Shown: positions 4,109 to 28,343 of the stretch, one piece after another | Layout of the letters: every line of letters starts with the position of its first letter | Numbering within the stretch: the first letter of the stretch is position 1 | Assembly (NCBI RefSeq): GCF_001441615.1 | Contig: NZ_LAXJ01000023.1 | Location: 1 to 64,000, forward strand | DNA length: 64,000 nucleotides | Direction: 5' to 3' | DNA from: Roseovarius atlanticus | GTDB lineage: Bacteria > Pseudomonadota > Alphaproteobacteria > Rhodobacterales > Rhodobacteraceae | Notes under the pieces: model-generated | Told to the model about the DNA's origin: nothing | The model's database searches: none | What the model saw: the letters and a program-made list of their open reading frames with translations, nothing else | Translations under genes and position numbers: made by a program

Positions 4109-6357
4109 CGGAGCAGCATATGAAAACACCCTCATACTCCACGTCTGAGACCTCATCGGAATTCGCAGAACGCCTGGCTCGATCAACCGTCTTGAGTCTT
4201 TTCGAGACCGAGTGGCTCGGCTTCGTCACTGTCGACCACTCCCCGGATCCAGACGAGTTCGAGGATGATGAAGACCCTGAATTCATCGCGAACCTGCCTG
4301 ACGATGTGACTGAGGCTGCCGCGAAACGGTCCTGGGAACACCCAAAGACCCCTTTGGCTCAATCGATGACCGAGGGCGAAATCGCAGAGGCAATCGGCAA
4401 CGGCTGCGACCCTTGGGCGCAGTCTTCGCTTGCTGAAGGCAGAATGCAGCAGAAAGACGATCCGCCCGCGTCCATCATCTCGGCGGCTTTGGGTCTGAGC
4501 ATGCTTGTGGACAGCGACGAGCATTTGCATGAGCTTTTTGCACCCGGAAGCGTGACGAATTTCGTGTGTCCGAAACAGTTTTTGTGGCAAATGAAGCAGA
4601 TTCTCGAGCGCGCAGAAAAGCGCTGGAAAAGCCATCTGCGCGACCCGGAGAACGCGGAATTGCGTCATTTCGTGCAGGACGAAGACGACAAGCGCGGCCT
4701 AAGACTGAGTCCTCTCAAACAGGGCATGTGGGGGGCTCGGCTGGAGCGAAGCCTCTCCCAAGGCGGGGCGGTCCTCCTTGTGACAACGGATGCCGGGCAA
4801 CTCGATGATGCAATGAATGCACTCGTCACGCGTCAGGTGACGTGGCACGGTCTTTCGTCAGATGTGGTGCTGGAGACGCTCCGGTTGACGCATTCTGCGA
4901 CGGGCCAACTGTCCGAGGCTGAAATCCGCAATCGCTTGCCGGGAGGCAGGAAGCTAGCGATGTTTCAGCCGGCGCAGATCGACGCGGCTTTCGCCGCGCC
5001 GACATCGCTCAAGGTTGCCGATGGCCTCGCCAAGATCGCAGCCAAACTAACGCGCCAAGTGCCGACCGTTACGCTCGATGCGGTGTTCGGTCTCGCTGAA
5101 GTGCGAAAGTCCCTTGATCGAATGTTGAACGATCTGAACCTGTGGCAACGGGGTGATCTGCCGTGGTCTGATGTTGCCTCGAGCGCGGTTTTCCATGGGC
5201 CTCCGGGCACCGGGAAAACAACGCTGGCCAAGGCGTTCGCAGGGTCGGCGGGCATTCCGATCATCGCGACATCGTATAGCGATTGTCAGAAATACGGGCA
5301 CCAAGGCGACATGCTTGGAGCTCTCGACCGCGCGTTTGTCGATGCAAAGCAGTCTGCCCCAGCCGTACTCTTCATCGATGAGCTCGACAGCTTCTCGCAA
5401 CGGGACGCAAGAGCGCACAATGTCGATTACCTCAGAGGCGTCGTAAACGGACTGCTGGAACAAATTAATCGGACGAAAGATGTTGGCGGCCTGTTACTGT
5501 TCGGCGCAACGAACTACTTGGACACCGTGGACCCGGCAGTCATCCGCAGCGGCCGCTTCGATCTCAAGATTCATGTCCCGTATCCTGACAAAACCGGGCT
5601 TGAGGCAATCCTGAGAGCCAAAATCGGGTCCGCAATCGCCGAGGATGTTGATATCGCCGCAATTGCAGACCGCCTGGTCGGCATGTCCGGCGCAGACGCC
5701 GAGGCAGTTGCGCGCGATGCTCTTGGGCGCGCGAGGGCCGATGCTGTCCATGTGGCCCAGCGGCATCTGGAGATTGCCGCGGATCAGGTTGCGCCCCAGC
5801 TCGACGACGACACTTTCAGGCGCGCAGCGGTGCATGAGGCTGGACATGTCTTGGTCATGCTGCAGCTTGGATTGCCGCTTCCGAAGCGCGTTTCGCTCTC
5901 CACACAAGGGGGCCGGGTAGAGCACGTGCCCGTCAATTCGCTGACGCCTGAGACAGCCCAAAAGCGGCTGCAAGTTTTGCTCGCTGGCCGAGCGTCGGAG
6001 CTCTGCATCTTCGGGGATGCAAGTTCTGGCGCTGGTGCGGGGGAGCAAAGCGACCTGGCAAAGGCGACAAGCCTGGCGTTGGCTATCGAACGACAATGGG
6101 GGTTCGGCGACAGCGGACTACTCTGGGACGGCATTGCAGCTGCAGACGTGTGGCGTGCGCCGTCAGATGTCCGGGATCGAGTCGAGACCCATTTGCGTCG
6201 CGCACAAGACCAAGCACTTGATCTGGTCGACAAAAACAAGGGCTTTCTTCTCCGCCTTACCAAGACACTGATCCAGCAGCGAGAAATCCACGGCGAGGAC
6301 ATTGAAGCCGTCAAACGGGAGTGCACGCATTCCCCTGAAGCAGGCTATGCGAGTTGA
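4105..6357 (+). CDS. AAA+ ATPase with FtsH-like M41 zinc-metalloprotease domain (750 aa), soluble
   Basis: AAA module: Walker A FHGPPGTGKTTLAKAF (about 363-378), Walker B AVLFIDELDSF (about 421-431), sensor-1 region LLLFGATNYLDTVDPAVIRSG and arginine-finger region RFDLKIHVPYPDK. The C-terminal part carries the zinc-protease motif HEAGH (about 576-580) in AAVHEAGHVLVMLQLG and a downstream SDLAKATSLA helix with the third-ligand Asp, as in peptidase M41. FtsH has N-terminal membrane helices and about 640 residues; this protein instead has about 300 soluble, acidic residues, with no membrane segment. It should unfold and degrade a specific cytosolic target. Coupled to the PD-(D/E)XK-like gene, it may regulate or be regulated by that nuclease. 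It ends at the paired terminator at 6379. Confidence 0.88.
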   Translation: MTEQHMKTPSYSTSETSSEFAERLARSTVLSLFETEWLGFVTVDHSPDPDEFEDDEDPEFIANLPDDVTEAAAKRSWEHPKTPLAQSMTEGEIAEAIGNGCDPWAQSSLAEGRMQQKDDPPASIISAALGLSMLVDSDEHLHELFAPGSVTNFVCPKQFLWQMKQILERAEKRWKSHLRDPENAELRHFVQDEDDKRGLRLSPLKQGMWGARLERSLSQGGAVLLVTTDAGQLDDAMNALVTRQVTWHGLSSDVVLETLRLTHSATGQLSEAEIRNRLPGGRKLAMFQPAQIDAAFAAPTSLKVADGLAKIAAKLTRQVPTVTLDAVFGLAEVRKSLDRMLNDLNLWQRGDLPWSDVASSAVFHGPPGTGKTTLAKAFAGSAGIPIIATSYSDCQKYGHQGDMLGALDRAFVDAKQSAPAVLFIDELDSFSQRDARAHNVDYLRGVVNGLLEQINRTKDVGGLLLFGATNYLDTVDPAVIRSGRFDLKIHVPYPDKTGLEAILRAKIGSAIAEDVDIAAIADRLVGMSGADAEAVARDALGRARADAVHVAQRHLEIAADQVAPQLDDDTFRRAAVHEAGHVLVMLQLGLPLPKRVSLSTQGGRVEHVPVNSLTPETAQKRLQVLLAGRASELCIFGDASSGAGAGEQSDLAKATSLALAIERQWGFGDSGLLWDGIAAADVWRAPSDVRDRVETHLRRAQDQALDLVDKNKGFLLRLTKTLIQQREIHGEDIEAVKRECTHSPEAGYAS

Positions 6358-6378
6358 ACCCAGAACAGATTGCACGTA

Positions 6379-6408
6379 GAGGCCGGGACGCCAATCGCAC
6401 CCGGCCTC
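6379..6408. terminator. Bidirectional terminator hairpin, copy 1
   Basis: The 9-bp stem GAGGCCGGG/CCCGGCCTC with a 12-base loop lies between the convergent AAA-protease gene and the first paralogous small gene. An almost identical hairpin occurs 914 bp further on, as part of the tandem duplication. Confidence 0.7.
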
Positions 6409-6420
6409 AATTGGCTGTTT

Positions 6421-6858
6421 TCAGTAGAATGCAGCGGGTGTCGAAATCGCGGTCTGCTCCTGAATCGCATTCTGCAGCCAGCCTTGAGTCGAATTCCAGG
6501 CTATGACCCGACCGGACTTCATTTCGAAGAGAATTGCGCCTCCTCCATATTCATCGGCACGACCGGTGGAACAGACGCGGCTGTACTGAAATCCCCAAGC
6601 GCCTTTGAATTCGAAGTCGAAACAAAACCGGTGCATGAAATGAATCACGGCCCCGATGTCAGCCTGTCCCGCCGAGTCTCGCAACCAGATGACTGCAGAG
6701 AGATCATCACGTTCAAGAATTGAAACGTCAAAGCTGAACATGTCCAGGGATGGGTCATCCACCTCGCGCAGGTACTTATGAAGTTTCACAGCTTCGTACG
6801 CGTACCATTCATCAATGAAGTCGAACGTGCATGAAAATTTGATTGTATATTTGCTCAT
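6421..6858 (-). CDS. Hypothetical protein, paralog A of a duplicated family (145 aa)
   Basis: The protein begins TIKFSCTFDF and shares with paralog B the pieces MFSFDVS, VIWLRD, a GxWGFxYS block (about 88-95) and YGGGAILFEMKSG (about 104-116), ending ISTPA. It looks like a small alpha/beta protein resembling immunity-type folds, without signal peptide or membrane helices. I do not recognise the family. An AT-rich 5' region with a conserved AAGGAATGTTAAATCAGG element precedes it. It converges on the AAA-protease gene with a shared terminator. Duplication beside a protease/nuclease pair suggests a target, adaptor or immunity role, but that is speculation. Confidence 0.66.
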   Translation of the reverse strand: MSKYTIKFSCTFDFIDEWYAYEAVKLHKYLREVDDPSLDMFSFDVSILERDDLSAVIWLRDSAGQADIGAVIHFMHRFCFDFEFKGAWGFQYSRVCSTGRADEYGGGAILFEMKSGRVIAWNSTQGWLQNAIQEQTAISTPAAFY

Positions 6859-7208
6859 TAATTTTCTCCAGTTAAAGCAATTCCTATTTACACGGGCACC
6901 CTTAAAGGAATGTTAAATCAGGGAATTTTCTTTGATTTGGTCAAGTTATGGTCTTTACCGAGATCAATGGACAAACAGTCGAATTCTGTTGGAGAACACC
7001 ATTCAGTTTGGCTTCCGGCTGATACGCGTTTCGGGATCTGGGTAGAAGCGCGCATCGCTGTGACCGGGTTCGCAGCCGCCGAGGGCGGTATGCAACGATA
7101 GCTGTTGGACAAGGCTATAAAAGGCGATTTTGGAGTGCCGAGGAGAAAGTAAGTATCCAAGCCGCCTGGGCAGTCCCAAAAAGAGCTTTCCTGGATCCCT
7201 ATATTTTT

Positions 7209-10084: not shown

Positions 10085-11506
10085 TTGGCTAAAAACATCT
10101 GTATTTTTTCCGATGGTACCGGACAGATGGGCGGGGCCCGGCCGGATCAACACCTTTCAAACGTTTACAAGATGTACCGTGCGATGCGCCCCGGTCCGGA
10201 CTCACCGATCAGTCCGAAGGATCAGGTCGCATTCTATGATCCCGGTCTCGGCACGGGAGAACGCGGCGGCGTCTTAAGTCGCATCAAGCCAGTCCTCGAA
10301 AGTTCAGTCGGCACTGGTATCGATCACAACATCATCGATTGCTACGAACAGATCATTGCACATTACGAGCCGGGAGATCGGGTCCTGCTTTTCGGGTTCT
10401 CTCGCGGCGCATACACGGTTAGGGCCCTGGCCAATGTCATGAACTTGTGCGGAATCCCGACGCGCATGCCGGATGGAAGCCCCGTCCCACGCTATGGCCC
10501 GGGGCTCAGGAAAATCGCCAAGGATGCGGTGACGTTCGTTTACAACCACGGCGCGGGAAAGCCGAGAACCGAGCAGCCCTATTACGACCGTCGCGAAGAG
10601 CTGGGCCGCAGATTCCGGCAGAAATATTCCAGCGCCCCGATCGAGGGCGAGGATGTCCAGGGCAACGTACAGCCGCATTTCATCGGCGTGTTCGATACCG
10701 TCGCTTCGCTCAGAACCGCCGTCGTAAGAACGCTTGTATGGGGCGTGACCATTGCCGTTGGCGCCGCATTCGTCGCGTCCCTCGCGCGTGACTGGCCGTG
10801 GGTCGCAACTGCACTGCTCGGTCTAACGGGAGCAGCTCTGACCTGGCAACTGGCCAAGCTTCTGGTCGACAACTTCAAGTTCTTTTCGGAGGATCCCAAC
10901 CGCAAGCTGAAGCTCTGGCGTCTCTCGGATTGGGCGCAAATTCTGGGGACCGGCCATTTCGCAGCCTGGAACAAGAAAAACTATGACAAGTGGCTGGACC
11001 CGGATGTTCAGCATGCTCGGCACGCGATGGCCATTGACGAAGATCGCGCTGACTTTCCAAGGGTTGGATGGGCTTCGGTCGCTGCCGCGGTCGAAACCAA
11101 GGCGAGACGCCCTGAATGGCTCAAACAGGTCTGGTTCCCAGGATGTCATAGTGACATTGGTGGCAGCTACCCCGAAGCTGAATCGCGGCTCAGTGATATC
11201 GCTCTCGACTGGATGGTTAAGGAGCTCCAGGAGTGCGTGCCTTCTATCCAGATCAACGAGCACATGCTCAATCGCGCCCCTGATCCTCTCGGCCTGCAAC
11301 ACCGCGAAGATGCCATGGTCTCTTTCGGTGCGTTGCGAATCCCTTGGAAAAAGGGCGTCCGGGAAGTGGGAGACGACTTCCTTCTGCACCCGTCGGTAAA
11401 AACGCGTATGAAAGCCGCTGCAGTTGTGCAAAGCGGCGATGTGAAGTCGTATCGTCCCGAGCAACTTAGGTCGCGAACCGGTCTCAGTTCATTTTACGAA
11501 CAGTGA
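10085..11506 (+). CDS. DUF2235 (Tle1-like alpha/beta hydrolase) protein with two membrane segments
   Basis: Start TTG at 10085 with AGAAGGAGC upstream; it begins AKNICIFSDGTGQ, as DUF2235 proteins do. The nucleophile elbow GFSRGAY (about 102-108) gives the GxSxG serine, and GCHSDIGGSYPE (about 354) supplies the acid region. Two hydrophobic helices (about 212-258) split the domain and would tether it to the inner membrane. The family includes T6SS Tle1 phospholipases, but no VgrG, Hcp or immunity gene is nearby, so a T6SS effector role is unlikely. A second DUF2235 gene at 22.2 kb lacks the helices. Confidence 0.85.
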   Translation: MAKNICIFSDGTGQMGGARPDQHLSNVYKMYRAMRPGPDSPISPKDQVAFYDPGLGTGERGGVLSRIKPVLESSVGTGIDHNIIDCYEQIIAHYEPGDRVLLFGFSRGAYTVRALANVMNLCGIPTRMPDGSPVPRYGPGLRKIAKDAVTFVYNHGAGKPRTEQPYYDRREELGRRFRQKYSSAPIEGEDVQGNVQPHFIGVFDTVASLRTAVVRTLVWGVTIAVGAAFVASLARDWPWVATALLGLTGAALTWQLAKLLVDNFKFFSEDPNRKLKLWRLSDWAQILGTGHFAAWNKKNYDKWLDPDVQHARHAMAIDEDRADFPRVGWASVAAAVETKARRPEWLKQVWFPGCHSDIGGSYPEAESRLSDIALDWMVKELQECVPSIQINEHMLNRAPDPLGLQHREDAMVSFGALRIPWKKGVREVGDDFLLHPSVKTRMKAAAVVQSGDVKSYRPEQLRSRTGLSSFYEQ

Positions 11507-17714: not shown

Positions 17715-18649
17715 CCCCACCTCGATCACACCGCTTTCGTCAATGCCTGCCGCGATGAGCGCGGCGTCGGACATCACACCTTGCGGCCTATGCCCAGGAT
17801 CTGCGCACCTTCGCCCGCTTCACCGAGGCCCACCATCTCAGCAACCCGCTGTCGAAAGACGACATCCTCGCCTACCAGCGCCATCTGCGCGATGAGTTGG
17901 GCGCCAAACCCGCGACCATCGAGCGGCGGCTCATGACGCTCAAGTCCTACTTTGCCTGGCGCGAAGATCGAAACAGCGCCCTGCCCTCCCCGTTCGCGGA
18001 TGTCCGCATCTCTGTGAGGATCCCGCGACGCCTGCCGCGCCCCATCGACCGAGACACCCTCAGAGCGGTTCTCCAAGAGGGTGAAGCCACATTCGCTGTG
18101 CGGTCAAAGCCGGGCGCTGACGACGCTACGCCTGCCTCACAAAACGATGTCACGATCCTGATCATCAAACTGCTCATCGTGACCGGCCTCCGGATCAGCG
18201 AGCTGACCAATGTAAGGGTCCGCGACGTCTCGCCGGACGGAAGCCAGATCCTCGTAAATGGCAAGGGCAGCAAGGAACGGATCGTCTTCGTGCCGAACCG
18301 GGAGCTGCAGGAGGAGTTTCAGCGCTACTGCCAGCTGCGTTCCGAACACGGTTCGATCGGAGCACCGCTGTTCTTCAACACGGTGGGACGCCGGCTTCGC
18401 GCGGCCACCTTCCGCAAGCGTCTGCGGGCGCTCTCAAAACGCCTCGGCATCGAACCCCACCTGACCCCGCACCGGTTTCGGCACTCGGCCGCGACCCTGC
18501 TGATCGAAGAGGGTATCGACATCCGCATGGTTCAGGCGCTCCTCGGACATGCCAGCCTCAGGACCACCGAGATCTATGTGAGGGTTTCAAACCACGCGCT
18601 GCGACGAGCGTTGGAGCGGGTAAACATTCTGGATGTGCTTTCGGTTTGA
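17712..18649 (+). pseudogene. XerC/D-like tyrosine recombinase, frameshifted near its N-terminus
   Basis: From ATG 17712 (site AAAGGAG) the frame reads to DERGVGHHTLR, then a single missing base near 17786 shifts the continuation, which resumes in another frame as AYAQDLRTFARFTEAHHLSN. From there to 18649 the protein is complete and has every catalytic residue: Arg in TGLRISELTN, Lys in NGKGSKERIVF, HRFRHSAATLL, LGHASLRTTEIYVRVSN with the nucleophile Tyr. Loss of one G in an expected CGGGCC would explain it. A downstream start (17897) would give only the catalytic domain plus part of the core-binding domain, so activity is doubtful. It stands at the left edge of the defence island. Confidence 0.83.
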
Positions 18650-18903: not shown

Positions 18904-21147
18904 ATGCGATTTGTAAACCGCGAGACTATTGCCCCGCCGGCAGCATTCTCGCGTCCATCGGCGCAGGAGGGGCGTCGCACTTTGCTGGAGTTGTTCTCTC
19001 GAGACACTCAGAAGCTTGCTCAGTCGCGCGGGACCGTCTTTCTGGACGAGGAAGCTCCCAGCAAGACTGAAGAGGTGCGCAAAGCACTGTCGGAGCTTTT
19101 CACGGGAAGATGCGCCTTCTGCGAAAGCACGACAAAAGATCCTATTGTCTACCGCTTCCGACCCGACGGTAATGCCGAGCCGGTGGAAGACTACAGCGTA
19201 TCGCATCTCTACTACGTTTGGCTCGCGGAGGCTTGGCAGAACCTATATCCGATTTGCCGGGGCTGCATGCCAAGCGATCCTTCCTACTTCCCGGTGAAAG
19301 GTCGACGCGCGCGGCTACCCGACGTCGCGCTTCTCGAACGCTTCGCCGATCGCAACGATGGGCGGTGGCCGGACTTCCCTCTCGAGGAATCTGCAGAGTT
19401 TTTGGACCCATGTTGGAACGAGCAGTTCTGGCGTAGCCTGTACTTTCGGTCCACTGGAGAGGTTGTTGGCACCAGTCGACGCGGCCGAGAGACCGTCCAG
19501 CATTTCAATCTCAACAGAGAAGAATTGTGGGAGAGCCGGCGGCGTGCGATTGAAGAAGCGGTTAGCCGGACAGAAAGCGAGATCTTGCGCGATCCGTTAA
19601 AGCCCCCGCGCGTCGATCTTGGCCACGAGGGCGCATGCGAGCTTTTCCTGCGTGAGGTCCTCTTTGAAGCCCTTGGCCGAACGGGCCCGAGAGATCGGAG
19701 CCGTCAGATCGCCCGGTTGGCGCGGATGGACGATGGGGCAAATCGGCTCCGCGCCGCAATCAAAGAAGTCGACGCGCGTATCATTGAGGACTTGCCCGAC
19801 GCCGCGAGCGCCAGGCCATCGCAGGGACGCACTGTGCTCACATCGTTCTCGGTTCGGAACTTCAAGTCCCTTGAGGCAATCGAACTTGATCTGGATGTAC
19901 CGGAGCCCGGCAAGCCAGCCCCGGCCCTTTTGATCCTGGGTGAGAACGCTACCGGAAAAAGCACGATATTGGAGGCGATCGCGCTCGCGGTGATGCCTGA
20001 GACCGCGCGGGCGAAGTTGCGCCTAGAGCCCGCGAAGATGGTGCTTGACCCGCGCTTCCTCGGTGCACCCGATCAGTTGACTCCTGTGGAAGCCAAGCTA
20101 CAGGCCAGGTTCGGCGATGACACCGCCATCTCTGTCACGCTATCGCGCGACGGGCTCGGTCAGTTCTCCCAAATTGGTGAGGCTGTACTTCCCGTCTTCG
20201 CTTATGGCGCCTATCGCCAATACTTGAAGGGCGACCGCAGATTTGTTGCCCACATACATGTGAGATCGCTGTTTCATCCCGATGAACTGCTGCCGAATCC
20301 GGAACGCTGGCTCTTGAAGCTGGATGGGCCCGAATTCAACATGGTGGTACGCGCCCTACGTGAGGTCTTTAACATCGAGGGCTCGTTTGAAGTCCTGGAA
20401 CGCGACGGTGACAGGATCTACGTGGTGGTCAGTCCCGAAAATACCACGGACGGCCCATTGCTTCGCACCCCGATTGAACTTGTATCCTCCGGCTTTCGCG
20501 CGGTCTTGGCCATGCTTTGCGACATCATGCAGGGCCTTATGGACAAGCGTGTCAATCATGGTTTCACCTCGCTCGAGAATGCCACGGCGCTTGTGCTTAT
20601 CGACGAGGTGGAGGCACATTTGCACCCGCGCTGGAAAATGTCGATCATGACCGGGTTGCGAAAAGCGCTGCCGGGGGTGACCTTTATCGCTACGTCGCAC
20701 GATCCTTTGTGTCTGCGCGGCATGAAGAAGGGTGAAGTAATGGTCCTCGAGAGGATCTCGGGCGATCAGGCAAGCACCAGTCTGCCAGTCTTCACCCACA
20801 GCCTCGTCGATCTGCCCGACAACGACAACTGGACAATAGAGCAGCTTCTCACAGCGGACTTCTTTCAGATGCGATCGACCGAGAGCCTTGAGGCGGAGCG
20901 GCGAGCAGCGCGGATGGAGGACCGCTTGGCGCAAGGAGCAAACCCTGCAGAAGACCCCGAGCTTCGGGATTACTTGGCGGAGCTCTCGGCCGACCTGCCT
21001 ATCGGCCACACCGAAGTGCACAGGCTTGTGCAGCAGGCAATAGCCGATTTCCTGCGCGAACGTCGGCAAGCAAGCGACGAAAAGCTACGTGGTCTCAGGG
21101 AGCAAACCCGACGATCTATCCTCAACGCGCTCAGGAGCGTGGGATGA
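18904..21147 (+). CDS. HNH-like domain fused to an AAA/ABC-type ATPase (PtuA-like), 747 aa
   Basis: The N-terminal third (about 50-130) is a Cys-rich HNH-like module: CAFCES, YRFRPDGNAE, HLYYVWLAEAWQNLYPICRGC. It parallels CAYCET, EHFRPKG, YWWLAADWDNLLPSCIDC in the next gene, but the catalytic His of EHFRPK is changed (YRFRPD), so it is probably inactive. The rest is an SMC/OLD-like ATPase: ILGENATGKSTILEAIAL (about 348-365), ABC-signature region IELVSSGFRAVLAML, Walker B ALVLIDEVEAHLHPRW and switch TSHDP. PtuA of the Septu defence system has the ATPase but normally no N-terminal HNH. The gene overlaps its HNH partner (ATGA). Confidence 0.82.
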   Translation: MRFVNRETIAPPAAFSRPSAQEGRRTLLELFSRDTQKLAQSRGTVFLDEEAPSKTEEVRKALSELFTGRCAFCESTTKDPIVYRFRPDGNAEPVEDYSVSHLYYVWLAEAWQNLYPICRGCMPSDPSYFPVKGRRARLPDVALLERFADRNDGRWPDFPLEESAEFLDPCWNEQFWRSLYFRSTGEVVGTSRRGRETVQHFNLNREELWESRRRAIEEAVSRTESEILRDPLKPPRVDLGHEGACELFLREVLFEALGRTGPRDRSRQIARLARMDDGANRLRAAIKEVDARIIEDLPDAASARPSQGRTVLTSFSVRNFKSLEAIELDLDVPEPGKPAPALLILGENATGKSTILEAIALAVMPETARAKLRLEPAKMVLDPRFLGAPDQLTPVEAKLQARFGDDTAISVTLSRDGLGQFSQIGEAVLPVFAYGAYRQYLKGDRRFVAHIHVRSLFHPDELLPNPERWLLKLDGPEFNMVVRALREVFNIEGSFEVLERDGDRIYVVVSPENTTDGPLLRTPIELVSSGFRAVLAMLCDIMQGLMDKRVNHGFTSLENATALVLIDEVEAHLHPRWKMSIMTGLRKALPGVTFIATSHDPLCLRGMKKGEVMVLERISGDQASTSLPVFTHSLVDLPDNDNWTIEQLLTADFFQMRSTESLEAERRAARMEDRLAQGANPAEDPELRDYLAELSADLPIGHTEVHRLVQQAIADFLRERRQASDEKLRGLREQTRRSILNALRSVG

Positions 21148-22091
21148 GACGGGTCGAACGCAGTGAGGCAATTCCGGAGGACCTCAATGAGAAAGGGGCG
21201 GCGGAACTTGAGAAAGCCATCCAGCACTTCGAAAGCAACCCTCCCAATCCGGATAGTTTTTCGTTCCAGCGTTACAAACTGAAGTCGGTGAAAGACGCGC
21301 TTGAACGGATTTTCCACGGCAAGTGCGCCTATTGCGAAACGTTCTACGCCAGTACGCAGCCACTCGATGTCGAGCATTTCCGTCCAAAAGGTGCGGTTGC
21401 CGGAGAAACCGGGCACCGTGGCTATTGGTGGCTTGCGGCGGACTGGGACAATCTTCTGCCCAGCTGCATCGATTGCAATAGGAAGCGGAATCAGATCACA
21501 CCTAAGGGCGAGACGTCGCAAGTTCGGCTACTCGAGGACACCGTCGGCTTCTCTGCCGCCGTCACTGTCGGATCTGGGAAGAAGGACAGCTTTCCAATAG
21601 CGCCAACCGGTGCACGTGCCAGGAGCCGCACCGATCCAATCGCCGCGGAGAAGCCGCTATTGCTCAATCCGTGCGAGGACGATCCTGAGCAGCACCTGAC
21701 GTACTTCTTTGATAGAGAGCACCCGGTTTCCTTCGTTCTCGCAAAACATCTCGCCGGGGATCCGGATTTTTCGGGCGACGACGGGTTAAGCCTGAAGGGC
21801 GCTACGTCAGTACATGTCTACGGACTGAACCGGCTTAGGCTGGTGCAAGCGCGGACCCGGCTTCTGCGGCGGCTCGAGTTTCTGGCCGATCTGGCGATAG
21901 ACCTCAAACAGCTGGCGGAAAACCTGAAACAGAAGGCGGACCCGGAGGTCGTTCGCGCTGGTCAACAGGTGGACGCATTCGGCGACCGAACACTGGCGGA
22001 GCTTGTCGGCATGTGCGCTGAAGACCAGCCGTACTCGGCGATGGCTAAGGCATGGATGCGCGATTTTCAAAACCGCCTCGAAGCGGCATAG
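21144..22091 (+). CDS. HNH endonuclease, PtuB-like (315 aa)
   Basis: The translation-coupled second gene has the hallmark zinc/HNH layout: CAYCET (about 51-56), DVEHFRPKG with the catalytic His, YWWLAADWDNLLPSCIDCNRKR (about 87-108), and a C-terminal LLNPCEDDPEQHL plus VYGLNR helix seen in retron-Ec78/Septu type PtuB proteins. In those systems the ATPase-HNH complex cleaves nucleic acid when triggered by phage. The active-site residues look intact here, unlike the degenerate copy in the ATPase gene. No reverse transcriptase or msr/msd sequence is visible, so this is a stand-alone Septu-like pair, not a retron. Confidence 0.84.
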   Translation: MRRVERSEAIPEDLNEKGAAELEKAIQHFESNPPNPDSFSFQRYKLKSVKDALERIFHGKCAYCETFYASTQPLDVEHFRPKGAVAGETGHRGYWWLAADWDNLLPSCIDCNRKRNQITPKGETSQVRLLEDTVGFSAAVTVGSGKKDSFPIAPTGARARSRTDPIAAEKPLLLNPCEDDPEQHLTYFFDREHPVSFVLAKHLAGDPDFSGDDGLSLKGATSVHVYGLNRLRLVQARTRLLRRLEFLADLAIDLKQLAENLKQKADPEVVRAGQQVDAFGDRTLAELVGMCAEDQPYSAMAKAWMRDFQNRLEAA

Positions 22092-22178: not shown

Positions 22179-23309
22179 TCAGTCGACGAAGTCAAACGTG
22201 TCCGGCAAATTCGGAGGGCGATGCTGCGCCTGCTCGACTGATCGGTGGATCTTTGCACCTGGTGGAATCCATCGCCGTTCTTTGAGTGGAACGCTCAGGC
22301 CGAAAAGTCTAAGGCGCTTCGAATGGGAACGAAGCCTGCGTGGTAGAAACTCCACAAAGCTCCAGCCAAGGGTCATTGAGTCATGATGCTTCGCATGGGC
22401 GTTCGGAGCGACGTACTTCTCCGCACGGCCCAGCACCAGATCGTTGACAGTCCGTGTCACGAATTGAAGCTCCGTTTCCTTCGCTTCGGTGATCATCCAG
22501 GCAAGCGGGACCTTCGCAAGCGCCGACGAGGCTTCAGGGTAACCGCCTCCTATGTCACCATGAACGCCCCGAAACCAAACTTCCTTCGCATCCTGTGGTT
22601 CGGACTTCGAAGCGTCGAAGCGGTTCGCACTGTAGTCTTGTGTTTCAGGCCAGAGCATCGGTTCGAACATCGTTCGGCGTTCGTCAATCGCAACCGCATG
22701 GCGGATCGATTGAACCGATGAATTGGTCGAGGTGTGGGCATTGCTTCTCAGTCGAAGCCCGAACCTACCGGTCTCTATGACCGACGCGACTGTATCGAAG
22801 AGACCAAGCATTCTGATTGGCGGTCTGTCCGCTCGGAGGGCCCGCTCGAACAAACGCATTTCGGCAAATGCGTTTTCCCTGCCGCCCTCCCCGATCCGCT
22901 TGTAAGCGCGATAGACGTAGTCAAGTAGATTGAGGTTCCGATTCTCCATAAGGCCAAAGGCGTGGATGAAACCTGCGAGGACCCGCGCGGAGTAGGCTCC
23001 TCTCGAAAACCCAAAGATGAAGATCCTGTCGCGGTTGCCGTCTTCATCCCGCTGATAGTTCTCAACCAGAAACCGATAGGCTTCCTTGACGTTCTTATCG
23101 AGACCATAGCCCGTCGCCAAACCGAAGATCTCCATGAACTTTCGCCAGATTCCGAGCCAGGCAAGACCAATCGTGCCTACGCCTGGATCATACCAGACGA
23201 TTTGATCCTCCGATTTCTTGAGTGTCCCGTACAACCGAAGGACATTTGTTCTGTCGGCTGAAATCTCATTGGAGGTCCCGTCGAAGAGGATCACAATGTT
23301 CTTTGCCAT
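22179..23309 (-). CDS. DUF2235 (Tle1-like) alpha/beta hydrolase, soluble (376 aa)
   Basis: Starts MAKNIVILFDGTSNEIS, then GVGT, nucleophile motif IFGFSRGAYSARVLAGF (about 102-118), FDTVAS (about 177-182) and GVHGDIGGGYPE (about 241-252): the full DUF2235 core with GxSxG serine and the conserved Asp/His segments. No signal peptide or membrane helix, in contrast to the DUF2235 protein at 10 kb. Its ATG lies only 12 bp after the stop of the helicase-nuclease gene on the same strand, so the two form one transcript. A cytosolic lipase-like partner suggests a membrane-attacking effector, which is inference. Confidence 0.86.
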   Translation of the reverse strand: MAKNIVILFDGTSNEISADRTNVLRLYGTLKKSEDQIVWYDPGVGTIGLAWLGIWRKFMEIFGLATGYGLDKNVKEAYRFLVENYQRDEDGNRDRIFIFGFSRGAYSARVLAGFIHAFGLMENRNLNLLDYVYRAYKRIGEGGRENAFAEMRLFERALRADRPPIRMLGLFDTVASVIETGRFGLRLRSNAHTSTNSSVQSIRHAVAIDERRTMFEPMLWPETQDYSANRFDASKSEPQDAKEVWFRGVHGDIGGGYPEASSALAKVPLAWMITEAKETELQFVTRTVNDLVLGRAEKYVAPNAHAKHHDSMTLGWSFVEFLPRRLRSHSKRLRLFGLSVPLKERRWIPPGAKIHRSVEQAQHRPPNLPDTFDFVD

Positions 23310-23321
23310 TCAATATCCCCA

Positions 23322-26300
23322 CTACTCTGAGCAGATAAGCTCAAACGGAATGCTCCACGTCTCCATTAGCAAGCTCGAGGTTGCAGCGAGAAGCTCCATG
23401 TGATCCTTCTTGGCGAGCTTCTTTGAATAGCCCGGTTGCACGGCGCTCACCTCGAAACGGTAGGTCAGCTCCGACCAGCGGCCAAGCCAGTTGTTGACGA
23501 TAGACGCATCACCGAGTTCGTATCGGGAATTCCCACCCTTTCGGAGCCGATCACCCTCGCGCTTGCGGAGATGTTGAAAGAAGAACCTAGGGTTCTCTCG
23601 CCAACGAAGCGATTTCTGGGATTGACCGCACACTTCGTAGAGATCATCGATCCGGGATCCCGGCGTGTCTTCGCTCGAATACTTGCAGTGGAAGAGATGC
23701 ACGAAAATAGTATCACCGTCTTCCTTTATGCACACGATATCCGCAGCTTCACCGGTTCCGTCGTCATCAAATACGACGTCGAACCGCCCAGATGAGATCA
23801 ACTCATCTATCATCGAGCGTTGGATGGAATTCTCGATCTTCAGCTTGCCCTGTGACTCCACGCGAATGTCGACGCCGCCCCAATCTCGTTCGATCATTTT
23901 CCCAGGGTCAAACGGCTCAATGCTTTCGCGATCAGGCAACTTGAACAACTCGGAATCCACGAGCATGTCGCCATTTCCGTAGTAGATGTGTGGTGGGTCT
24001 TCCTTGAACCACTCCTGGATTGTCAAGCTTCTTCGACCCAATGAAACTGAGATCGGAACGGTATCAACTTGGCGATAGACGGCAAATCCATCCTCGATTG
24101 TCATCTCGAACTCACAGGAACTATCATCAATAGAAATCAAGATACGGACGGGCCCTTCATCAGAAAAGCGACCAACTCCAATGTCGCAGTTTAAGATTGG
24201 GTGCCGTCTGCCATTCACCGTTAGTTCGACCCGTTCCTCATCCTGATCGAGTATTCGTTCTGGCCACACGATGGCGACCGGCGTAAGGCTTGGCATTCTC
24301 TTTTGTCGTACCGGGCGGATCAGATTTTTCAGAAACGCGTCCGTCGGGATGCTGTCATCGAGCACCTTTCGCCCAAGATCGTGGCACCAATCGATCCACT
24401 CTCCAAAATTGTTGGTGGCATCGTAGGACCAGAACTTGCCTTTGCGGGAGCACCCGATAGTGACTTTGCCTTGGTCGGTGTAGCCTTGCCCGAACAAATT
24501 GGTTTTCGACCTGTTCCGGTTGCCCGGAAGCGTATCGATATGCTCAGTGATATCGGTACCCATGAATTGCGAGTACCTCACGGGACGCCGTTGGGTCTCA
24601 CTCAATCCGAGCGTATTGAGACAGAGCCTGCGAACACCGTTCAAGCACCTGTAGACTTCTTCCCCACCAATCCTTGAGACACCATCGCCGCAAAGCTTCT
24701 TGGCCAGCGGCTCATGCATGTCTTTGAGACGCGAAGAGTGGATAAAGAGCAGGTCTCGCTCTCCATCCCAATGAACCATGTAGAGATTGTATTCGGTGTT
24801 ATGGACGGCACGCGAAGTTGTCCACTTCGGCTGATCCTGATCTCTCTTGACGAAGATTGCTAGGTTTTCGTGCGGGTTGATGTGCGGGCCCTCCACGATA
24901 GAGGTCGGAGGGAACACTTCCTCGATCAGTTCTGGCTGCCAGACAACCCCGCTAGTCTTGTAGATTACGGTGCTCATGCGAGGACTAAGCGTTTCGAGCG
25001 GAAACCGCTCTGGCGCAGCCGTGAACCCCTCAAAAACAGCCTCTCGGCGAACTTCGCGCTCCGTCCTTGACTGGCCGATGTTGCTAATCAGACGGTTCCA
25101 GTCAGCATCCTCCGCATAAAGCGCTTTCAGCGGTTCGTTGATGTCACCTAGCGCCACGTTCGCAATGACGGTTGCGTCACCGAGGTCACTGCGCGCGCGC
25201 GTGAAGCGACCAATGAACTGGAGCGTCACAGCTTCAGACCTGTGTTTGTCATGAAGCGCGGCGATCTTAAGGTCCGGTAGATCGAAGCCTTCACCTAGCA
25301 TGTTTACACACAGTACGATCCTCGACTGTCGGGTCCGTAATCGTTCGATCGCGTCCCTTCTCTCTGAATCAGAAAGTCCGCTGTGTAACACCATGGGCTC
25401 ATGCTGCGGGTACTTGGCTCGATACAGGTGTATCAACTCTTCTGCTCGAGCCTGCCGAGCGCAACGAGCCATCACTAGGTGATCAAAACCATTCTGTCTG
25501 TCTTCTTCCAGCACTTGACCGACCAAGTCGACGATCTGCTCGTCAGTATCGATGTCGTCAGCGCCGCTGACTGGGAGGTACTTGATGCGCTTGAAGTAGC
25601 CTTCCTCCTGAGCCTTCCATAGCGGGTAGACATAAATGTGGCGGCCATCCACTCGCACCTTGTCCCGCCGAAAGGGAGTAGCAGTGAACTGCAGAACTTT
25701 TGTCTTTGAAAAGTAGGACCTGAAACGTCGCCAGGTCTTGGCGCCGATGTGATGAGCTTCATCCACGAAGAGGTGGCTCGCGAGCTCGGCCATTCTTTGC
25801 TGAACAGCGCTTGCTGCCTGTCCGGCCACGTTCATCGTAGTCACAACTACGTTGGCTGCATGAAAGACTTGGTCGACCTCTTCGACTGACTTTGGCCTTC
25901 TGTTGAGAGTAGCGACGACTGGTCTCGCAACAAACTCCGGCAAGCATCCACAGGCCGGGAGGATTCCGAGACTCATGAACTTTTCGGAAATCTGAGTTCG
26001 GAGGGCGTCGTTGGGTACGACGATCAGCAAACGCGGGGCCACAACCGCTGTGGCCAATGCGATCATGGTCTCTGTCTTTCCGGTCCCTGTCGGCATGACA
26101 ATTGTACCGGGATTATCCGATACACTCCAATGAGCGAGCGATGCATGAACAGCACCTACTTGAGGGGGACGAAGGCCGGCGGACATTACCGCGTCAGACG
26201 CGAGCTTCTCTTCGCGCAACTCGAATTTGCCGTCCCAAGCGGCTTGGACTGCCTTGGTTGTTTTGGCGAGGAGTTCCGGTTCGCACCGCGTAGGGTTGAG

Positions 26301-26621
26301 AGGTTTTGGTGTTAGTCTATCGGCAGTTCCTCTCGAAAGGCTCGAGATGCAGGCGTCGACCGATGAGGCATCTTCGATGATGAAGACCTCATCGGCTTCA
26401 ATCGATGCGTTGGTACGTCGGTCGACAAAAGCAATTCGATAACCGTCATCAGCCTCACCAAGCACGCCTTTCAACTGTCGTTGGCGCAACTCGCTCAAAA
26501 AGAGCTTCCGCTGGCGAGGCGGCATCGCAACCTGCTTTACAAGAGCGCCACCTATGCGTCCGTGAACCCCAATGAGTTCCGGAACCGCGAAAAGGATGCT
26601 CTGGGCAAAAAGGTCAACCAT
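23322..26621 (-). CDS. SF2 (DEAD/DEAH) helicase with C-terminal PD-(D/E)XK-like nuclease domain (1099 aa)
   Basis: ATG at 26621 gives a natural N-terminus (VDLFAQSILF); the frame upstream is poor protein. Helicase motifs: I PTGTGKTE (about 177), II FVDEAHH (about 286), III FTATPFRRD (about 312), Q/VI QFIGRFTRAR (about 468), with GEGFDLPDLK (motif V). After a long middle part comes VVFDDDGTGEAADIVCIKED, then FVHLFHCKYS (about 955-985), matching the Asp...Glu-x-Lys strands of a PD-(D/E)XK nuclease, although the strict D-ExK order is approximate. Such large helicase-nucleases are typical of defence islands. Gene order places it first in an operon with DUF2235. It does not match BREX or DISARM, whose partners are absent. 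Confidence 0.8.
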   Translation of the reverse strand: MVDLFAQSILFAVPELIGVHGRIGGALVKQVAMPPRQRKLFLSELRQRQLKGVLGEADDGYRIAFVDRRTNASIEADEVFIIEDASSVDACISSLSRGTADRLTPKPLNPTRCEPELLAKTTKAVQAAWDGKFELREEKLASDAVMSAGLRPPQVGAVHASLAHWSVSDNPGTIVMPTGTGKTETMIALATAVVAPRLLIVVPNDALRTQISEKFMSLGILPACGCLPEFVARPVVATLNRRPKSVEEVDQVFHAANVVVTTMNVAGQAASAVQQRMAELASHLFVDEAHHIGAKTWRRFRSYFSKTKVLQFTATPFRRDKVRVDGRHIYVYPLWKAQEEGYFKRIKYLPVSGADDIDTDEQIVDLVGQVLEEDRQNGFDHLVMARCARQARAEELIHLYRAKYPQHEPMVLHSGLSDSERRDAIERLRTRQSRIVLCVNMLGEGFDLPDLKIAALHDKHRSEAVTLQFIGRFTRARSDLGDATVIANVALGDINEPLKALYAEDADWNRLISNIGQSRTEREVRREAVFEGFTAAPERFPLETLSPRMSTVIYKTSGVVWQPELIEEVFPPTSIVEGPHINPHENLAIFVKRDQDQPKWTTSRAVHNTEYNLYMVHWDGERDLLFIHSSRLKDMHEPLAKKLCGDGVSRIGGEEVYRCLNGVRRLCLNTLGLSETQRRPVRYSQFMGTDITEHIDTLPGNRNRSKTNLFGQGYTDQGKVTIGCSRKGKFWSYDATNNFGEWIDWCHDLGRKVLDDSIPTDAFLKNLIRPVRQKRMPSLTPVAIVWPERILDQDEERVELTVNGRRHPILNCDIGVGRFSDEGPVRILISIDDSSCEFEMTIEDGFAVYRQVDTVPISVSLGRRSLTIQEWFKEDPPHIYYGNGDMLVDSELFKLPDRESIEPFDPGKMIERDWGGVDIRVESQGKLKIENSIQRSMIDELISSGRFDVVFDDDGTGEAADIVCIKEDGDTIFVHLFHCKYSSEDTPGSRIDDLYEVCGQSQKSLRWRENPRFFFQHLRKREGDRLRKGGNSRYELGDASIVNNWLGRWSELTYRFEVSAVQPGYSKKLAKKDHMELLAATSSLLMETWSIPFELICSE

Positions 26622-26852
26622 ATGATCCCAACAAATAGTGTGAAAATGCTGACTTAGCCACAACAAGTAGCAATGGCAACGGTTGGTGTACGGAGGACAG
26701 GCGCTGCTTTCAGATCTGAGTTTGAGCTGTCGCCTACGGTGGCTCGGGCCGTCAGCCCTGTCGGGTAGATAGCCTATGCAAACCAATTGCATTTCTAATG
26801 CATCACAAAAGGTCTCATTGAAAAAATGCCATGTTTCTGAATCGGAATGGGA

Positions 26853-28343
26853 TTAATGTCGTCGAGTATCGTACTTTGGAAGATAGAGGGGGACCGATAC
26901 TGCATCGCTTCCCCGATCTCGACGCCGTTCCTCTTCGTACATCGCCAACGACAAGAGAATAAGGGCTTCGTGCGCCAACTGTAGCATTCGAACGGTGTGA
27001 CGTTGGAACACGGTCAGCTCCTCCCGATCAATTGGGCTGTCGTCGTGCAAGGCGAATTCACTGCATAAAACAAGACAACGGTGTTCGAGCAAATTTCGAA
27101 GGCTGCTTAGATGGGCAGCAGTCGGTTCGATCGAGTCATCGTGTGAGCCTCTTGACCCCAGGATGTCGAAGGAGAGCCAATAAAGACCGCGCAGCGCAAG
27201 GTTGGGACGATCATGAAATGGAACCGCGAGGGCATCTCTTCTCCTTGGGTCCTTATACCATATGCCTCTGAGGTCGACTTGGTTCGGTCGCCTCCCCAAC
27301 TTGAAAAATGTGTTCAAGAATCCCGCTATCTTATCTAGCAGCCCATAAGCTGTTCTAAAGGACAACCGCAGTTTTTCTGCACCTATGGAGAACTCCGGGT
27401 AATCCAACGTATCAATTAAATGGGTGCCGTCATCGGCAAAGTGCCTTCCGCGATCCTCGAATGGCGGACCCTCCACCGCTTCGTGGAATAGTAAACGCGC
27501 GGCTACAAACTCCTGCTTTAGCTGGTTATACCATCTTAGATAATGCGGCGGCTCTTCGAGTCCGTAGGTGTGCGACGGCAAGTGAAGCGGATCTAACGCC
27601 GCGATGGGATATGGACCAATCACAACCAAAGGGTTGAGGAAGAGGCCCATCTCTAGCATACGCTCTCGATAGATGCGCTCTTCTCCCTGTCCAACTTGCC
27701 AAGCGTGCATATCGGTTTCAGCAAGTACTGCTTCCACGTCGACTGCGTCTCGAACTTGTGCGGCCTGCTCTGAGACAGCCGCACGCATTTCAGGGTAATC
27801 ACCGTCCCACTCTACATCCCCGTTCAGGACGCGTTCGAAGTCCTGCCAAGCATGTGCAGCGAGAACGGCTCGATGACCGTCATCGTAGATCATGCGCGCC
27901 AGCGTCAGACGTGCAAGACCTCGATTAGCGATCGCCATGGCGAAGTTGGGGCTCTCTCTCAGAACGGTTTCATAGATCCTGAGTGCCTCGACCGGCCGAC
28001 CGAAGGTGTTCATGTTGTTTGCCAGGTTCGTCCCGATCTGGGCCCGTCGCGTCAGCGATATCTGAGCAAAGGTCCGTGCGGTCCGTGCGCGTCGGAGGTA
28101 CAGGATTTGCCTTTCCCTGTTTGGTTGCCGCCAAGCCCAACTCCGCGGCTCCTCCGCATCTTGTAAAGCCGCGTAGATATTGGCTCGAAAGTAATGGAGC
28201 AATGCGTCCAAGTCTGTTGAAGCTGCCAGCTTCTTCTTGCAAATGGCGTCGATACGTCGAAGCTCTTCTGATCGTCCCTCTAACGCCGCGTCATCAATTC
28301 GGAGCGCGAGTTCGTCGAGTTCAATGTTCATTTCATCTTGCAT
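26853..28343 (-). CDS. LA2681-like HEPN domain protein with TPR-type N-terminus (496 aa)
   Basis: The N-terminal half is helical with TPR-like repeats (GRPVEALRIYETVLRESPNF, AIANRGLARLTLARM). The C-terminal part has the LA2681 features: LRLSFRTAYGLLDKIAGFLN, FFKLG, IWY, LALRGLYWLSFDI, and the HEPN catalytic signature RNLLEH (Arg-x4-His, about 416-421) followed by a long HEPN helix (QLAHEALILLSLAMY). HEPN proteins with Rx4-6H are metal-independent RNases that act in toxin and abortive-infection systems. No cognate antitoxin is adjacent, so the TPR part may sense and restrain it. It is 230 bp upstream of the helicase gene on the same strand. Confidence 0.8.
   Translation of the reverse strand: MQDEMNIELDELALRIDDAALEGRSEELRRIDAICKKKLAASTDLDALLHYFRANIYAALQDAEEPRSWAWRQPNRERQILYLRRARTARTFAQISLTRRAQIGTNLANNMNTFGRPVEALRIYETVLRESPNFAMAIANRGLARLTLARMIYDDGHRAVLAAHAWQDFERVLNGDVEWDGDYPEMRAAVSEQAAQVRDAVDVEAVLAETDMHAWQVGQGEERIYRERMLEMGLFLNPLVVIGPYPIAALDPLHLPSHTYGLEEPPHYLRWYNQLKQEFVAARLLFHEAVEGPPFEDRGRHFADDGTHLIDTLDYPEFSIGAEKLRLSFRTAYGLLDKIAGFLNTFFKLGRRPNQVDLRGIWYKDPRRRDALAVPFHDRPNLALRGLYWLSFDILGSRGSHDDSIEPTAAHLSSLRNLLEHRCLVLCSEFALHDDSPIDREELTVFQRHTVRMLQLAHEALILLSLAMYEEERRRDRGSDAVSVPLYLPKYDTRRH

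Follow-up and report, generated by a model that had tools for sequence, protein, structure and literature searches.

What can be left to do for a nuclease domain that appears to have lost its cutting site, stays joined to the ATPase of a predicted defence system and sits beside an intact version of itself? This question is raised by two genes of Roseovarius atlanticus, found in a stretch of 64,000 nucleotides (contig NZ_LAXJ01000023.1, positions 1 to 64,000; hereafter the window). Gene A (18904..21147, + strand), an open reading frame of 747 aa, encodes a PtuB-like pseudonuclease fused to a PtuA ATPase, and gene B (21144..22091, + strand) a stand-alone PtuB-like HNH protein of 315 aa; the stop codon of A and the start codon of B overlap as ATGA. 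A sequence-only reading had proposed a Septu-type ATPase with an internal pseudo-HNH domain and an intact external HNH protein, and this view is supported by profile, fold and comparative tests.

A PtuB fold in front of a PtuA ATPase

The C-terminal part of A is a PtuA ATPase of the SMC/ABC type (residues 310-696; 19831..20991, + strand), as delimited by fold alignment and conserved columns. From residue 310, the full-length model (pLDDT 87.2) matches E. coli Septu PtuA with a Z of 26.7 (8eea_C, VIA-align), the first 21 rows all being PtuA entries, and the Walker A (346-353), Walker B (D567-E568) and signature (S528-S-G530) motifs as well as H599 are present. Regarding Septu type I of E. coli (PDB 8eea, 8ee4, 8sux), the window shares the PtuA fold, the SMC/ABC-like ATPase with its motifs, and a PtuB-type HNH gene with a complete site adjoining ptuA. 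However, the solved E. coli PtuA chain starts opposite residue 310 of A and lacks any HNH part, whereas a seemingly dead PtuB stands in front of the ATPase in the window. To our knowledge, PtuA itself normally lacks a nuclease domain.

The likeness of the N-terminus of A to PtuB is apparent at several levels. Residues 1-300 align with B itself (BLASTP, E 2e-13, 25% identity), with the PADLOC PtuB profile PDLC00316 over residues 1-226 (E 5e-25) and with the NCBIfam PtuB profile over residues 53-223 (E 8.2e-7, the 29 bits lying below the curated cut-off of 150), while a Pfam scan of the same residues returned no family up to E 1. A confident fold is predicted for residues 1-310 (AlphaFold2 with 64 sequences, pLDDT 91.9, pTM 0.89), which aligns with 9u9y_H over 175 residues (VIA-align, Z 14.9, rmsd 2.7). 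The 11 best rows are PtuB-size chains of PtuA-PtuB complexes (Z 14.9-6.2) and the next ones are a Cas9 and a Cap5 (both Z 4.0); the PtuB or PtuA identity of matched PDB chains was taken from entry titles, chain lengths and, for some, molecule names. With Foldseek, the five best PtuB rows reach a TM of 0.33-0.37 (query length), with an rmsd of 10-13 and E from 5.8e-5 to 1.6e-3. An unrelated zinc ribbon, which the sequence-only reading had named as the finding that would speak against it, is ruled out, PtuB appearing instead and no non-PtuB chain exceeding Z 4.0 with VIA-align. The repeat of the HNH partner within A, put at about 130 residues, holds as a repeat by BLASTP and profiles but not in its length: the fold alignment covers residues 1-254 (18904..19665, + strand; AlphaFold2 and VIA-align), so that a whole PtuB, more than the HNH core, would be fused. 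On these models, the window would hold a variant of Septu type I rather than a plain member, in line with the variant architecture of a known system proposed at the outset.

PtuA and PtuB effectors likewise occur in retrons of type I-A, or Septu type II (Ec78 = Eco7, Ec83), and in fold the N-terminus of A comes closest to the PtuB of Ec78. The retron reading was nonetheless rejected since a reverse transcriptase (PF00078) has no match in the whole genome of the window, with matches in 3/14 control genomes, and Rfam, a database that may not include all retron RNAs, has none up to E 1 between 14000 and 28400.

The external partner has an intact site, as expected from the sequence-only reading: E77, H78, N103, N112 and the four cysteines are all present in B, which matches the PADLOC PtuB profile PDLC00329 (E 3.8e-127), so that B would be the active PtuB as judged by its residues, E77, H78 and N112 in particular. 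Its matches to NCBIfam TIGR02646 (E 1.1e-11, 45 bits against a cut-off of 52) and to Pfam HNH stay below the curated cut-offs. B was found in 108/109 fused loci, with a fully readable and intact site in 106. A fused A devoid of partner was sought in plasmids, genome contigs (best 80 of 230), viral contigs and genome samples, and the only case was L199, where A is shortened and no B lies within the 4.7 kb examined; besides, L062 has a short piece of B only, and both A and B are in broken frames in L004.

Loss and history of the catalytic site

In A of the window, the four zinc cysteines are retained in two knuckles, C70-x-x-C73 (19111..19122, + strand) and C118-x-x-C121 (19255..19269 with the following residue, + strand), as is N113, the middle N of the HNH motif (19240..19242, + strand). 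In contrast, Y83-R84 (19150..19155, + strand) stand in place of the catalytic E77-H78 of B and M122, next to the second knuckle, in place of N112. In other words, the pattern is C70xxC73...Y83-R84-F-R-P...W111xN113...C118xxC121-M122 in A against CxxC...EH[FY]RP...WxN...CxxCN in B. The altered region of the catalytic His, already pointed out from the letters of the window, is hence confirmed by alignment to B, and two further catalytic positions turn out to be changed as well.

Among 109 fused A proteins, the four cysteines and the middle N are kept in all (109/109) and the R-P in 107, but the catalytic residues survive in few, namely E/D in 14, H in 12 and N/H in 14; all three are found in a single protein and none of them in 83. 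Conversely, the three residues are complete in 107/107 readable B (3 rows with gaps being dropped) and in 20/20 readable PtuB of unfused systems, from which L032 (B of the window again) and 8 rows with gaps were dropped. In four of these eight (L027, L035, L029 and L215), the E or H columns do not read E/D or H, and in L209 they are gapped, all of which was taken as truncation or misalignment. Neither L018 (again the window) nor L010 (broken at the N-terminus) is among the 109 rows; close relatives are (L003, L040, L042, L049, L100 and L119 among others), and so are L004 and L226, whose N-terminal part is in a different frame from the ATPase. Arg is the commonest replacement of the His, in 81/110 rows with the genome of the window counted twice. 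PtuB H75 and N91 are reported to be required for defence by Septu EcB88, which also needs the PtuA Walker residues (PMC13096335), and with positions mapped by motif the losses in A should therefore kill cleavage. From both residues and model, the N-terminus of A is apparently a retained pseudonuclease, and its retention in 109 sampled relatives suggests that it gained a job other than cutting.

A complete site in the first domain, held by the sequence-only reading to speak against a pseudonuclease, occurs once in the 109 and does not restore the domain of the window. This sole fused A with an intact site (L120) comes from a viral contig and has its partner, so the presence of the partner does not force inactivation, and it fits an ancestor in which the fused domain was intact. 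A tree of the ATPase part with 149 rows has all fused rows to the same side of a single, unsupported branch, i.e. one label change. For the fused rows, this tree implies a minimum of 4, 5 and 6 changes at the three catalytic positions, and three lineages differ in what they lost. In lineage I (9 rows), E/D is kept, His is lost in all and N is kept in 8; in lineage II (8 rows, L120 included), His is kept in 7 and N lost in 7; and in lineage III, to which the window belongs (91 rows with a readable site), all three are lost in 82, His alone is kept in 5 and N alone in 4. The simplest reading would be one fusion of an active PtuB followed by inactivation along several routes. A tree of PtuB domains (98 rows), weak in its deep branches, keeps most A and B domains apart, and the grouping of B into lineages I-III largely follows that of A. 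Canonical PtuB does not form a single clade; one of its rows is placed with A, and three A rows of lineage I sit apart from the rest of A.

In the main lineage (88 rows), the fused domain has a signature of its own, F72, R84, I117 and P123 at 85-99% (R84 at 85%, next to F85 at 98%), where B has Y, H, S and R at 97-100%. Against L037, dN/dS is about 0.12 for the dead domain, 0.10 for the ATPase and 0.08 for B, and identity is 80% for the dead domain against 88% for B. The dead domain thus changes faster than B, as relaxed constraint would also give. Differences from L003 are too few (dN 0.0057, dS 0.0062) and dS is saturated against L038 and L100. Taken together, the conserved signature and the low dN/dS of this one pair indicate that the dead domain seems to be maintained.

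Possible roles of the dead domain

Pseudoenzymes controlling an active paralogue are familiar from kinases. Here, a defence nuclease would have a dead paralogue on its ATPase, with Arg for the catalytic His in most of the 109 relatives. With a probability of about 60%, the locus would encode a Septu-type complex in which PtuA carries a fused PtuB copy, its site lost, that is kept as a structural cradle for B, a proposal drawn from alignments and predicted structures. A and B are predicted to form a defence complex of this type, where a second PtuB copy would have been fused to PtuA, lost its cutting site and remained as a structural domain. A may dimerise through its ATPase heads, and the pseudonuclease probably occupies, on the ATPase or close to it, the place that PtuB takes in solved complexes with PtuA. 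It would dock or anchor B there as a built-in cradle or heterodimer partner, positioning and restraining the sole active HNH subunit. A change in ATP or ligand state triggered by a phage would free B, and the freed B would cut DNA or tRNA and so abort infection. Different PtuAB are reported to target DNA or tRNA (PMC11555353), and Septu EcB88 to cut tRNA-Tyr (PMC13096335). A lipase gene could supply a second effector in many of the relatives and perhaps in the window as well.

PtuA is reported to outnumber PtuB in published complexes, at 6:2 in Septu (PMC12948488) and, by entry titles, at 4:2 in retron I-A. With its own pseudo-PtuB on each ATPase, the arrangement in the window likely differs from both. 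Since one PtuB copy is tied to the ATPase, the locus also gives direct access to the way in which PtuB is held and released by PtuA.

Somewhat doubtful is the idea that the dead domain reads DNA or tRNA, its Arg-bearing groove gripping the phosphate backbone and handing the substrate to B. The frequent replacement of His by Arg, the conservation of R84 and F85 in the main lineage, and the retention of the R-P and of N113 would all suit such a reader, but the charge does not: median net charge per 100 aa over the first 230 residues is -0.4 for A and -0.9 for B, and the core median is -1 for A against +1 for B, hence no positive excess. Moreover, lineage II is without this Arg, the His being kept in 7/8.

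It is unlikely that the locus is an ordinary Septu type I, already covered by PADLOC, in which the fusion changes nothing. Three PADLOC PtuA1 profiles do match A nearly end to end, PDLC00291 over residues 1-745 (E 1.8e-251) and PDLC00288 and PDLC00292 over nearly its whole length, and so cover the fused protein from residue 1; their description, however, names a PtuA or AAA ATPase domain only and leaves the second, dead HNH unnamed. The one-sided position of fused rows in the ATPase tree, albeit on an unsupported branch, also speaks against it, as do neighbouring genes unlike those of unfused controls (see below). The fused protein is therefore already counted as PtuA by PADLOC, whereas the dead domain and the lipase link appear to be newly described here: the literature searched, which comprised titles, abstract starts and passages, yielded no account of the dead domain, of the Arg conserved in it or of the lipase link.

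Very unlikely is a functionless, drifting relic, which would explain why different catalytic residues went in different lineages and why the dead domain changes faster than B, but sits poorly with zinc cysteines and N113 intact in 109/109, a dN/dS of about 0.12 against L037, a confident predicted fold and a new conserved signature. Least credible of all is a nuclease with a rewired site, hence two cutters: L120 shows that a complete site is possible in the fused position and the zinc scaffold and N113 are kept, but the window no longer has the base and the metal-binding residues, the main lineage has no new acidic or His residue, and its E74, E162 and D168 (at least 80%) are common in B too.

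Lipases, other neighbours and distribution

Beyond the cradle proposed for B, the surroundings of fused loci are peculiar. A lipase-like gene lies in the flanks of 49/110 fused loci vs. 1/39 unfused controls in a profile search, a contrast biased toward the fused side because the profiles were built from genes beside fused loci. The controls are 39 unfused PtuA-like loci with similar flanks, 32 of which have an adjacent PtuB-like ORF. The 49 genes comprise 25 large patatins, 2 small patatins, 10 Tle1-like (DUF2235, PF09994) and 12 other alpha/beta-hydrolase-like genes, the latter (the "hyd" family) called hydrolase-like from an HSLG motif and weak DUF900 and EstD matches. After thinning fused rows at 60% identity, 26/64 have a lipase-like gene by the same biased profiles. 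Given this bias, immediate neighbours were also scanned with Pfam as an unbiased check: of 126 proteins around the 64 thinned fused loci, 12 belong to Patatin, more than to any other family, and 2 are Tle1-like, while each amounts to at most 1 in the control neighbours (73 proteins), both being absent from families with at least 2 members (25 of 111 control families listed; simple ORF calling misses some genes).

A patatin-like gene comes directly behind B in 16/98 loci with at least 1 kb downstream. Overall, 39/49 lipase-like genes are same-strand neighbours at no more than 150 nt, and an 18-nt tblastn gap makes L084 a fortieth; for the "hyd" family, this holds for only 7 of the 12 loci. On the tree, the lipase label has to change 18 times or more, so that lipases were frequently gained or lost. 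In 6 further fused loci (6/110), a gene for the NACHT anti-phage protein HyoA (NCBIfam NF058534; one scanned, five by similarity) lies directly upstream of A; it was not found in the examined flanks of the other 104 fused loci, the window included. Lipase-like and HyoA-like genes together concern 1/39 controls. The literature searched, consulted in part, contained no mention of HyoA and no earlier description of lipases as a second, membrane arm of Septu, as the link suggests.

A broader reading is tentative: the fused Septu might be the core of a modular, multi-effector defence that repeatedly gained swappable lipases or NACHT proteins, the dead nuclease serving as the adaptor that connects ATPase, active HNH and these effectors (two patatin types, Tle1-like, alpha/beta-hydrolase-like, NACHT). 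The module of the window might then consist of helicase, phospholipase, A and B in rearranged order. The gene following B at 87 nt, in convergent orientation (22179..23309, - strand), encodes a Tle1-like (DUF2235) phospholipase with a GFSRG motif (PF09994, 258.7 bits), and directly upstream of it on its own strand is a ResIII/DEAD helicase (23322..26792, - strand; PF04851). The former is a possible accessory effector and the latter a possible fourth member of the system; being convergent to B and behind the helicase on its own strand, the phospholipase could also belong to another operon. L038 and L100 have helicase, A, B and lipase in this order on a single strand, with the phospholipase homologue 10 nt after B and a helicase homologue upstream of A (47% in L038 and 48% in L100, tblastn). 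Over nine loci, A and lipase identity fall in step (r 0.87, from 36 non-independent pairs). Both observations point to a co-inherited set that was rearranged in the lineage of the window; as a counterpoint, L037, the closest A relative after L003, has no lipase in the examined flank.

Regarding distribution, a phage-borne system was rejected, since 6/50,697 phage records match and none over 80% of A. Out of 77 viral-contig loci, fusion is seen in 4 (L117-L120, of which two are near-identical) and was excluded by a check in 2 others, the remaining 71 being judged by match range alone. Fused forms at E 1e-50 occur in 1/385 genomes of the class of the window and in 1/369 genomes of the class of G637, i.e. 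in the window's own genome and in G637 itself, with at most 3 candidates scored per genome. Among the best 80 of 230 genome loci, a biased sample, 79 are from Pseudomonadota and 1 from a Planctomycete, with 47 genus labels, in which unnamed genera may be lumped into one. The plasmid loci include one Bacillota case, Priestia, where a retron-type reverse transcriptase adjoins B. The best plasmid match is pTHAF9_b of Roseovarius sp. THAF9, whose A is 99.2% identical and annotated as "AAA family ATPase", adjoining an "HNH endonuclease".

Surroundings of the fused Septu pair

In the window, gene A (fused PtuB-like pseudonuclease and PtuA ATPase) and its stand-alone HNH partner B are flanked by a Tle1-like (DUF2235) phospholipase and a ResIII/DEAD helicase (22179-26792, minus strand), and the same two functions flank the pair in the homologous loci L038 and L100 (842-8846, plus strand), the gene order and orientation around A-B in the window differing from those in both loci. 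A tyrosine integrase (17897-18649, plus strand) ends 254 nt upstream of A, and an LA2681-like HEPN protein (26853-28343, minus strand) lies past the helicase as seen from A-B. Since the same stretch on the Roseovarius plasmid pTHAF9_b extends to genes whose annotations read CBASS phospholipase and AbiEii toxin, these surroundings look like a defence island. A second, diverged stretch resembling the DUF2235/Tle1-like phospholipase, in two pieces of 31-36% identity, is found at 10085-11278 (plus strand).

Genes upstream of A in homologous loci

Immediately upstream of A, six loci (L058, L063, L064, L065, L067 and L068) carry a gene of 1274-1300 aa, which in L064 scores 1151.8 bits against the NCBIfam HyoA NACHT anti-phage protein, slightly below the cut-off of 1200. 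In L039-L043, L083 and L229, a 466-527 aa protein with an HSLG motif is encoded upstream of A, the middle stretch of which is poorly conserved and hydrophobic by appearance; a Pfam scan of two members (L041 and L043) returned zero families over their own cut-off.

A neighbouring reverse transcriptase

In L016 from Priestia megaterium, a Retron St85-family reverse transcriptase (5955-6968, minus strand) adjoins the fused Septu pair, and this locus is possibly a retron with a fused ATPase.
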